From: Polystyrenella longa
GTDB lineage: Bacteria; Planctomycetota; Planctomycetia; Planctomycetales; Planctomycetaceae
DNA: 64,000 nucleotides
Reading direction: 5' to 3'
NCBI RefSeq assembly: GCF_007750395.1
Contig: NZ_CP036281.1
Location: 3,805,001-3,869,000, forward strand
Shown: positions 54,383 to 58,549 of the stretch, one piece after another
Layout of the letters: each line of letters starts with the position of its first letter
Position numbering within the stretch: position 1 is the stretch's first letter
Made by a program: the position numbers and the translations under genes
Notes under the pieces: model-generated
What the model saw: the letters and a program-made list of their open reading frames with translations, nothing else
Told to the model about the DNA's origin: nothing
Databases searched by the model: none

Positions 54383-54649
54383 ATGCAGCAGCTAATTATT
54401 TTTCACGGTCATGTCCAGGGAGTCGGGTTCCGCTACACCACCCGCCAATTGGCCCGCCGATTTCCAGTCACCGGGTACGTTAAGAACCTGCCTGATGGGA
54501 CCGTCGAACTCTTCATCGACGGTGACCAGGATGACTTGGAACAATTAGTTACTGCCATTCAGGGGCGTTTTGAGAGAAATTTCACCCGGACGGAAGTAAC
54601 CAAACAGGATACAAAAGAGCACTACACTTCTTTTGATATCCGTCGTTGA
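54383..54649 (+). CDS. acyP: acylphosphatase
   Basis: The 88-residue protein is a complete acylphosphatase: GHVQGVGFRYTT gives the phosphate loop with catalytic R17, and GYVKNLPDGTVEL supplies catalytic N35. The family hydrolyses acyl phosphates such as acetyl phosphate and 1,3-bisphosphoglycerate. It starts 63 bp after the haem-like gene on the same strand and may be co-transcribed with it. Confidence 0.94.
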   Translation: MQQLIIFHGHVQGVGFRYTTRQLARRFPVTGYVKNLPDGTVELFIDGDQDDLEQLVTAIQGRFERNFTRTEVTKQDTKEHYTSFDIRR

Positions 54650-55106: not shown

Positions 55107-56051
55107 ATGGGTGCTGAACTCGCTCTGTTTGCCCAAAGTGGTCCTCCCACGCTCAGTCAAATCCTTTCTTCACCAGGCTGGATCTGGACCGGAATTACTT
55201 CGGTATTGGTGCTGGCCGTCTTTTTCGGCATGCAGTACTTCACCCAGATGGGCGTGATTGCTCGCGCGACGGCGAAGGAAGCGATTCGCCAACCGATTTT
55301 CATTCTACTGCTGCTGTTTGGTATTTTCTTTCTGGTGCTGGTCACCTTTTTGCCGTTCTTCTCTCTGGGTTCCGACCTGAAGATGATGAAGGACTGCGGT
55401 TTGATGCACATCCTCATCAGTTGCCTCCTCTTGGCCGTCTGGACTTCGAGTACCAGTATTGCCAACGAGATTGAGGGCAAAACAGCAATGACATTGCTTT
55501 CAAAACCAGTCAACAGACGTCAGTTCATCGTGGGAAAACTGATGGGCATCGTGAACGCCGTCTTTGCCCTCTGGTTGCCGTTATCAATTATGTTTCTGAT
55601 GCTCGTATTTTACAAAACAATTTATGAGAGCCGCGAGTCGGGCGAGAGTATGGAATTGCGGATGCGGTTTCTGCTCACTTTCCAGATGGTGCCAGGTCTG
55701 ATTTTGATTCTGCTTGAATCAATCGTGATGGCCTCAATCAGCGTGGCGATCTCAACCCGCCTGCCGATGTTTGTGAACATGGTCGTCTGCCTGGTCATTT
55801 TCATTCTCGGCCAGCTGACCCCCATTCTGGTTGAGCAAAGTGCCTTCAAAATTGAATTCGTCCAGTTTATCGCTCAATGGCTGGCAACGATTATTCCATC
55901 ACTGGAAAGTTTTAACGTACAAACGGCCATCCAGCGCGACCGATTGGTCCCGCCGGAGTACCTGGGATGGATTGCCTTGTATTCATTCTTATACAGTTCC
56001 GTGGCGATGCTGTTTGCATTCATCCTGTTTGAAGACCGGGACCTTGCTTAA
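55107..56051 (+). CDS. ABC-2-type transporter permease
   Basis: The 314-residue protein has six or seven membrane segments: about 30-50, 65-90, 105-125, 150-170, 195-215, 220-240 and 285-310. ANEIEGKTAMTLLSKPVNRRQFIVGK is the typical cytoplasmic elbow of ABC-2 permeases of the NosY/YhaP type. No ATP-binding subunit lies next to it; the nearest ABC gene (56417) has lost its ATPase motifs, so its functional ATPase must be encoded elsewhere. Substrate unknown. Confidence 0.85.
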   Translation: MGAELALFAQSGPPTLSQILSSPGWIWTGITSVLVLAVFFGMQYFTQMGVIARATAKEAIRQPIFILLLLFGIFFLVLVTFLPFFSLGSDLKMMKDCGLMHILISCLLLAVWTSSTSIANEIEGKTAMTLLSKPVNRRQFIVGKLMGIVNAVFALWLPLSIMFLMLVFYKTIYESRESGESMELRMRFLLTFQMVPGLILILLESIVMASISVAISTRLPMFVNMVVCLVIFILGQLTPILVEQSAFKIEFVQFIAQWLATIIPSLESFNVQTAIQRDRLVPPEYLGWIALYSFLYSSVAMLFAFILFEDRDLA

Positions 56052-56416: not shown

Positions 56417-58549
56417 GTGGCAACAGTCGAAAAGGCCTCAGTAAAACGGCTTCTCGCCGGACGGCATTTCCTGAAAGGGCAGCGACGCTTCACCCTTATC
56501 TGGGCAGTGCTCGCCTCGTGTATTTTCTGTCTGGCATTGCTCACTCTCTTTCTACTGCTCGACCTGCTCCACACGCGCGGTTCTGTTCAGATCAATCCAG
56601 ATCATGAAGCTGAGTTCAGGCAACTGCTTCCCAAATTCAACTCGAGGGTCAAAATAGATCTCCCTGTCGATCTTGCAAGAATGTTCAAGGCTGATGGTGA
56701 CGGAGGAGAAGAAGTATCAGAATCTTCGACTGAAGATTCTGATACGAACGACAAAACAAAGTCCGAGTCGGAAGTTTCCAATCTCTCTGAAAAGTTCACT
56801 GAGAAGGATTCGAGTCATATACGGTTGCGTCTCGATTATTTCGAAAGAGGGATTCTCCCTTCCGTCTGGTGGCTGAGAAATACAGTCTGGGGTTATCCCG
56901 TAGCGAGTGCTTACGACCGAATCACTTGGTTAAACACCAACACGACAGCGTTGATCTTTTTGATTCTGACGCTCGTATTTCTCATGTTACTATTCAATCT
57001 GATGACCTCCCGAATCTGGAATGTTTCCGCGCAGATCGGAATGGAAGTCGCCCAGAAACTTCGGCGCGAATTATACCGTCAGGTCCTTCGGCTTGGCCCG
57101 GCCGACTTATGTGAGCAACAACAGCAACACGCCGTCGAACTATTCACTAAAGACACAGAAGAGGTGCGGACCTCTGTGGAATCGCTGGCTTACCGTTACG
57201 CCCGCGACACCGTCCTGTTAGTCACCTTAGTCCTGTTCGCCCTTACTCTGAACTGGTTACTCGCTCTCGAATGTCTGATTCCCCTGGGAGCCTGTTGGTA
57301 CCTGATTCGTCAGGAATTGATCCGGTTCCGGGAATCTCGCGCACTTCTCGATGCTTCCGCCAACAAGACGCTCAACGTCCTCTCGCAAAGTTTCCGTAAT
57401 ACGCGGCTCGTCCGAGCCTATGGCATGGAAACATCAGAGCATGAAACTTTTTCCAGAAATCTGGACCGATTAAAAGAGCGACTCCTCAATGTGAACCGAC
57501 GGGAACGCTGGTCTCGCTGGTTTTGCCGAATGCTGATTTTGTTCTGCGCATCCATTGTGCTGATCCTTGTCTGCATGAAGGTCTTGATTGACTCAAGCAA
57601 TTTACCACTGGCCGCCGGCTTAAGCCTGTTAGTCACTTTTATTGCGCTGCATTGGCCTCTTAAGAACTTGGCGAAGATCCCTGTCGAGAAAAAAATCGCC
57701 GGGCATGCGGCCGATCGAATTTATCGTTATCTCGACAATGTCCCTCCTGTCAGCCAGGCGGTCGGTGCAAAATTCATGTCACCCCTCGCGAACTCGCTCG
57801 CTTTTGAATCAGTTCACTATCAAACCGAATCTGGACAGAAATTACTCAACGGACTTGATCTGACTGTGAAAGCGGGCGAAAAAATTGCCTTGGTTTCACT
57901 CAATCGCCTGGAATGCGTCGCGGCTGCCAATCTGATTTCGCGATTCATCGAACCTTCAGACGGTCGTCTCCTGATCGATGGCGAAGATATTTCCTGGGCG
58001 ACTTTAGAGTCATTACGGGCCGAAATTGCTTACGTAGGTGGAAACGATCAATTCTTCACAGGCTCGGTGTTCGAAAACATACGCACGGGAAATAATTCCT
58101 TTTCCCATTCGGCAGTCATGGAAACGGCCAAGCAGGCCCGTGCACACAATTTCATCCTACGTCTTCCCAATGGATACGAGACGATCCTCGGCCCGAACGG
58201 TGAAACTCTGACCCCCGGACAACGGTTTCGATTGGGAATCGCTCGCGCCCTGCTTCGCAATCCGGCACTCCTAATACTGGCGGAACCGGCGGAGCCCTTG
58301 GATACTGACACGAAATCACGACTGGACGATGCCTACACGCAGATTATACAGGGACGGACCACAATATTTCTGCCCAATCGGCTCTCCACTGTTCGGCGGG
58401 TCGATCGCATTGCCTTGATACATGAAGGTAAGGTTGAGTCGATCGGAACTCACGCCGAACTCGTCAAGAAGTCTCCCATCTATCGCCATTGGGAGTACAT
58501 GAATTTCAACGCATTTCGAACCAATGGTTCCGCTGATTGCGATTCCTGA
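56417..58549 (+). CDS. full-length ABC exporter-like protein with a degenerate nucleotide-binding domain
   Basis: The 710-residue protein has the exporter layout: membrane helix near 30-55, a polar acidic insertion (about 60-140), further membrane helices between about 175 and 400, and an ABC ATPase-like domain from about residue 455. The ATPase domain aligns well with family members, but the catalytic residues are gone. The P-loop is VSLNRLECVAAANLI, with V501 where the lysine of GKS/T would be. The signature is LTPGQRFRLG instead of LSGGQ, the Walker B aspartate is A622 (LILAEPAEPLD), and the switch histidine is N654 (FLPNRLST). It is thus likely unable to bind or hydrolyse ATP normally. 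The intact reading frame argues for a retained, non-transport function. The start is GTG at 56417. Confidence 0.85.
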   Translation: MATVEKASVKRLLAGRHFLKGQRRFTLIWAVLASCIFCLALLTLFLLLDLLHTRGSVQINPDHEAEFRQLLPKFNSRVKIDLPVDLARMFKADGDGGEEVSESSTEDSDTNDKTKSESEVSNLSEKFTEKDSSHIRLRLDYFERGILPSVWWLRNTVWGYPVASAYDRITWLNTNTTALIFLILTLVFLMLLFNLMTSRIWNVSAQIGMEVAQKLRRELYRQVLRLGPADLCEQQQQHAVELFTKDTEEVRTSVESLAYRYARDTVLLVTLVLFALTLNWLLALECLIPLGACWYLIRQELIRFRESRALLDASANKTLNVLSQSFRNTRLVRAYGMETSEHETFSRNLDRLKERLLNVNRRERWSRWFCRMLILFCASIVLILVCMKVLIDSSNLPLAAGLSLLVTFIALHWPLKNLAKIPVEKKIAGHAADRIYRYLDNVPPVSQAVGAKFMSPLANSLAFESVHYQTESGQKLLNGLDLTVKAGEKIALVSLNRLECVAAANLISRFIEPSDGRLLIDGEDISWATLESLRAEIAYVGGNDQFFTGSVFENIRTGNNSFSHSAVMETAKQARAHNFILRLPNGYETILGPNGETLTPGQRFRLGIARALLRNPALLILAEPAEPLDTDTKSRLDDAYTQIIQGRTTIFLPNRLSTVRRVDRIALIHEGKVESIGTHAELVKKSPIYRHWEYMNFNAFRTNGSADCDS

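Follow-up and report, generated by a model that had tools for sequence, protein, structure and literature searches.

What keeps an ABC exporter gene open and at full length when nearly every motif that its ATPase would need has been replaced? The question is raised by a gene of Polystyrenella longa that lies in a window of 64,000 nucleotides, by which we mean the whole stretch of DNA analyzed; coordinates are positions in that window unless a contig is named. We call the protein the dead exporter, and its parts are as follows.

56417..58549, + strand: dead ABC exporter gene, 710 aa, GTG start, open frame (PF00664, PF00005, AlphaFold2 model)
56480..57736, + strand: type IV exporter transmembrane domain, residues ~22-440 (helices in the model; PF00664 at residues 174-391)
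56576..56851, + strand: insert between transmembrane helices 1 and 2, residues 54-145, partly disordered, acidic, and of variable length
57779..58486, + strand: nucleotide-binding-domain (NBD) fold, residues 455-690, the most conserved domain (column entropy, 64 rows)
58487..58531, + strand: conserved C-terminal tail, residues 691-705, with HWEY (alignment)

By fold, the protein is a type IV ABC exporter, with the transmembrane domain and the NBD fold in one chain. Both halves score above the Pfam cut-offs (PF00664, 71.1 bits; PF00005, 60.4 bits), and the AlphaFold2 model, made with 64 sequences, has a mean pLDDT of 87.3 and a pTM of 0.78. The model aligns with TmrA (5mkk_A) at a VIA-align Z of 31.6 and an rmsd of 4.8 over 582 residues, and its top Foldseek match is MsbA (9fur_A; E 2.6e-29). 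Against the MsbA equivalog TIGR02203, the protein scores 260 bits, below the cut-off of 602. Low pLDDT is found at residues 95-131, inside the insert, whose length ranges from 5 to 127 across the dead-exporter rows printed. The coding region of this disordered loop also contains a perfect 14-bp inverted repeat with a 4-base loop (56714-56745).

Alignment to intact exporters was used to assign the positions of the ATPase motifs.

57896..57922, + strand: Walker A replaced, residues 494-502, SLNRLECVA; family consensus SLDPLEARA
58034..58048, + strand: Q-loop replaced, residues 540-544, VGGND; Gln is G542
58208..58222, + strand: signature replaced, residues 598-602, LSGGQ to LTPGQ; family consensus LDxGQ
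58271..58288, + strand: Walker B, residues 619-624, LILAEP; Asp lost (A622), Glu kept (E623)
58373..58390, + strand: switch region, residues 653-658, PNRLST; His is N654, the next Arg invariant

Where an intact exporter has GxxGxGKST, the window protein has SLNRLECVA, with C500 at the lysine position and V501 in place of the next Ser/Thr, and in the model a helix starts at residue 497, inside the former P-loop. The initial annotation had described the losses at the signature (LTPGQ), Walker B (A622), and switch (N654) just as the alignment places them; its P-loop lysine, put at V501, was off by one. Its statement that all motifs are replaced holds for most of them and is slightly too strong, in that E623 and the last G-Q of the signature are retained. 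Judged from the residues present, the Walker A, Q-loop, signature, Walker B, and switch histidine positions are not fit for ATP hydrolysis.

The dead site is common to homologs, which a comparison proposed by the initial annotation has now brought out. In an alignment of 64 Planctomycetaceae proteins (the window copy and 63 of the 65 full-length dead proteins from named Planctomycetaceae-type records), K500, Q542, and H654 each occur in 0/64, the Walker B aspartate in 3, and the signature serine in 1; E623 is present in all 64, the D-loop aspartate in 58, and the A-loop aromatic is mostly retained, as tyrosine in 47. The new residues form a consensus of their own, namely, SLDPLEARA at Walker A, LDxGQ at the signature, EEP at Walker B, and PxRLST at the switch. 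None of the 35 proteins from the window's family retains any of five core residues (K500, S/T501, Q542, D622, and H654). Among 18 dead exporters of other families, 6 keep none of these residues, 6 keep one, 2 keep two, and 4 keep three, with K500 in 9, Q542 in 7, and H654 in 6. The Walker A Ser/Thr and the Walker B Asp are absent from all 53 sampled members of the clade.

Several observations bear on whether such a protein is kept by selection. Mean column entropy over the 64 rows is 1.38 bits in the NBD versus 2.35 in residues 141-440, and comparison with a same-genus ortholog gives a pN of 0.112 for the NBD, 0.178 for the transmembrane part, and 0.303 for residues 1-140. The overall dN/dS against that ortholog is ~0.08, a rough figure with dS near or beyond saturation. 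A search of 59 genomes (the own genome and relatives) found one strong ortholog in 35 of 36 same-family relatives; the only one without it (G002) is 65% complete, and one match (G018) is a fragment. In a tree of 53 dead exporters sampled across the class and only 7 other exporters, the dead ones form one side of a branch with an SH-aLRT of 100, although the exact placement of the very long branches (L101, L114, L115, and L052) is unsure. Among the rows used, a 275-aa contig-edge fragment (L056) was retained, and L052 was counted once. Because the loss of core residues is graded within a single clade, we infer that the loss of the site probably had a single origin and then proceeded in steps.

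These results bear out the earlier proposals of an intact reading frame and of selection for a pseudo-ATPase. They also dispose of the view that the gene is a decaying pseudogene. That view could draw on the alteration of all ATP-binding motifs in the window copy and on five of 30 fetched loci, each of which has a single stop codon inside the aligned stretch. The same five loci nevertheless have open frames of 633 to 738 residues, which places the stops at the ends. With dN far below dS, the NBD the most constrained domain, and one clade spread across the class, we rule decay out and leave it a negligible probability.

The main clue to function is a gene that the initial annotation did not mention, an ABC-2 permease immediately upstream. 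This gene and a recurrent neighbor are listed here.

55107..56051, + strand: NosY-like ABC-2 permease, 314 aa, with no ATPase gene beside it (PF12679, model, Foldseek)
54383..54649, + strand: acylphosphatase gene, recurrent neighbor upstream of the permease (PF00708, 75.3 bits)

The permease scores 27.7 bits to PF12679, just over the cut-off of 27.2, and its model (pLDDT 86.3) has the NosY chain 7qba_E as its top Foldseek match at a modest E of 7e-5; its predicted fold is thus NosY-like. The permease is present in 144 of 148 class genomes, and the dead exporter (E <= 1e-130) is present in 101 of 148, a count that misses divergent dead copies adjoining the permease in two genomes (G055 and G131). 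All 101 genomes with the dead exporter also carry the permease, and in 89 the genes are adjacent and on the same strand, with the permease upstream; in the remaining 12, the pair lies far apart on one contig (2 genomes) or on different contigs (10 genomes). At the same threshold, 43 of the 144 permease genomes lack the dead exporter, and so the permease does not need it. Of 37 genomes sampled from the window's family, 36 carry both genes and one (G138) carries neither. Named permease records, which include Gimesia, Schlesneria, Fuerstiella, Planctomicrobium, and Alienimonas chondri, give a similar picture, with a dead exporter downstream in 69 of 80 and a GxxxxGK[ST] motif in 0 of those 69. 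In ten other records, the sequence extends far enough but the expected place is without a dead exporter (in one of the ten, L184, it comes slightly further on), and one record ends too soon. A gap of 365 bases separates the two genes in the window, so that each may have its own transcript.

A near-invariant EIEGKTAxTLLSKP segment runs through the permease alignment (the window copy and 48 of 80 permeases) and occurs also in families without the dead exporter. We take this segment to be the coupling helix, where ABC-2 permeases meet their NBD. Its retention in the absence of the dead exporter is as expected if the permease still meets an NBD.

Other features of the permease loci were recorded as well. 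The acylphosphatase gene occurs in 25 of 67 permease loci, always on the same strand and with or without the dead exporter, and in 3 of 20 loci outside the class. Those 20 loci (L235-L254) often have what we presume, from sequence starts, to be a metallophosphoesterase-like gene after the permease (12 of 20), and genes that we would likewise guess to be parB-like (10) and parA-like (6) lie upstream on the other strand. In several class loci without the dead exporter (L098, L100, L102, and others), the permease frame is 500 to 630 aa long, with an N-terminal extension. An HD-domain gene downstream of the dead exporter was considered as a system part and rejected as not general, since its cluster has 5 members versus 36 in the exporter cluster.

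Which ATPase, then, would serve this permease? Scans with a home-made profile built from seven ATPases of the window's genome, which could miss distant ATPases, covered 20 sampled loci outside the class and 16 class loci that lack the dead exporter. No ABC ATPase was detected near the permease at any of the 20 or at 14 of the 16; in the two exceptions, one is encoded on the opposite strand, 3 to 5 kb off. An ATPase gene beside the permease, as expected of an ABC-2 or NosDFY transporter, was not found at these loci, and the two share a gene cluster only in the loci L269-L273 described below. A dedicated orphan ABC-2 ATPase in the window's genome was also sought, in 37 stretches with ABC ATPase genes, a part of the 58 PF00005 places, and this candidate was rejected: by a crude hydropathy count of membrane helices, a multi-helix protein is encoded close to every ATPase there with an ABC-2-like P-loop but one (L198), which resembles LptB.

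A more promising source is the ATPase partner of a related permease. The own genome encodes a 537-aa permease that scores 41 bits to the permease profile and is paired with a 307-aa ATPase (L212; C1:3408463-3409383), ~450 kb from the window. The permease (>= 100 bits) is present in 64 of 149 sampled phylum genomes; of these, 59 also encode an L212-type ATPase (E <= 1e-75), as do 31 of the 85 that lack the permease. This co-occurrence is confounded by kinship, which alone might produce the counts. In all five of the loci L269-L273, an L212-type ATPase shares one gene cluster, at a distance of ~4 to 7 kb, with a permease that belongs to the same clade (SH-aLRT 99); these loci lie outside the class and were picked because coordinates suggested permease-ATPase linkage. 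The other 5 of 10 fetched loci have an L212-type ATPase with only the related permease. Four class genomes without the permease still have an L212-type ATPase, as expected given that this ATPase has its own permease. In the L269-L273 clusters, several further membrane and large proteins are encoded between the two permeases.

We propose that the dead exporter is a pseudo-ATPase and a nonhydrolyzing accessory subunit of a split ABC-2 (NosY-like) transporter, whose ATPase is supplied in trans from the L212-type locus, and we give this proposal as a whole an even chance. A type IV (MsbA/TmrAB-like) exporter line would have been deprived of a functional ATP site just once, early in the history of the class, and retained from then on. 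The dead exporter would work as a nonhydrolyzing subunit together with its operon-neighbor permease, and the ATPase would come from elsewhere in the genome, with the L212-type enzyme as the best candidate. The dead NBD might form an immobile block for docking or gating, through which the exporter transmembrane domain is coupled with the permease or with the shared ATPase. The lost site, its conservation, the single clade, and the gene link to the permease are observed; that the proteins form a complex, which ATPase powers it, and this mechanical role are inferred. A disarmed exporter that is under strong selection and nearly always beside an ATPase-less membrane protein suggests that a former pump has become a permanent component of a different membrane machine. 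The scaffold form of the earlier "receptor or scaffold" idea comes close to this proposal.

The alternatives differ mainly in what they make of the permease and of the altered site. The protein might instead stand alone as an ATP-free homodimer that serves as a receptor, lipid scramblase, channel, or scaffold, with the adjacency to the permease being inherited gene order. The full-length, well-predicted exporter fold agrees with this, as do the 12 of 101 genomes in which the genes are apart and the retained D-loop aspartate (58/64) and signature end, through which NBD dimer contacts may survive. However, inertia alone hardly explains adjacency in 89 of 101 genomes over several families, with no dead exporter lacking a permease, and we regard this reading as unlikely. 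A nucleotide sensor, in which the NBD would bind ATP or another nucleotide without hydrolysis and gate a partner, would account for the invariant E623, the A-loop tyrosine in 47 of 64 proteins, and the core residues kept outside the window's family (K500 9/18, Q542 7/18, and H654 6/18). Yet all five core residues are absent in 35 of 35 proteins of the window's family, none of the 53 clade members has the Walker A Ser/Thr or the Walker B Asp, and the model begins a helix at residue 497 inside the former P-loop, all of which make a sensor quite improbable.

The suggestion that the protein forms the inactive side of a heterodimeric exporter, its intact counterpart being encoded at another place in the genome, has some points in its favor, since the genome does contain an intact exporter (L229, C1 near 110 kb) and degenerate sites are described as common in full-length and heterodimeric exporters (PMC7756269). 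Several findings weigh against it. Only three PF00664 proteins were found in the genome, neither of the other two adjoins the gene, and the conserved adjacent gene encodes an ABC-2 permease, not an exporter. In ABC NBD dimers, which assemble head to tail, each ATP site is built from the Walker A of one subunit and the signature of its partner. The altered Walker A and the altered signature of the dead exporter therefore sit in different composite sites, both of which are damaged, and no consensus site is left. This idea, raised by the initial annotation, is thus disfavored and in our estimation very unlikely. A further possibility, which we consider distinctly improbable, is an ATP-free ABC-derived complex in which the dead NBDs meet the coupling segment of the NosY-like permease as a static or regulatory stand-in for ATPase subunits, forming a passive flippase, a channel, or a membrane-organizing scaffold.

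Degenerate ATP sites in exporters are known, but in the literature consulted they accompany a functional one. In this case, an entire exporter chain is disarmed; across a bacterial class it has been retained with the NBD as its best-conserved domain, and it is tied to an ATPase-less permease. Families that keep the Lys, Gln, or His, compared with those that keep none, provide a natural series for testing NBD roles besides hydrolysis. Also, if the proposal of an ATPase in trans is true, it gives a functional handle on a permease found in 144 of 148 sampled planctomycete genomes. The own genome encodes a second exporter-like protein of 716 aa (C1 near 5560449-5562600; L230:2950-5100), with an intact Walker A, LNEKQ at the signature, LDG at Walker B, and no switch histidine; the genes that flank its own encode an outer-membrane efflux protein (PF02321) and an HlyD-like protein (PF13437), and from its motifs it is possibly another degenerate exporter.

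We found no paper on a dead planctomycete exporter in the literature searched, which covered few subscription journals. The dead exporter resembles type IV ABC exporters (MsbA, TmrAB, Sav1866, and ABCB) in whole-length fold and domain order and differs from them in having no usable ATP site and in its gene pairing with an ABC-2 permease. Degenerate-site exporters (TAP, TM287/288, BmrCD, and ABCG5/G8) share with it the stable, inherited replacement of catalytic motifs, and their ATP sites are described as composite (PMC7756269). They keep one consensus site per dimer, whereas the dead exporter chain has lost both Walker A and signature, retains no consensus composite site, and has no partner exporter half encoded beside it. 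Shared (multitask) ABC ATPases, each serving permeases encoded elsewhere, are known (PMC7658222), with MsmX, MsmK, and MceG as examples of the kind; they serve importers, and the window permease may share an ATPase in a comparable manner. The closest likeness of the permease itself is to NosDFY: its predicted fold is nearest to NosY, and it differs in having a dead exporter, instead of an ATPase gene, beside it.
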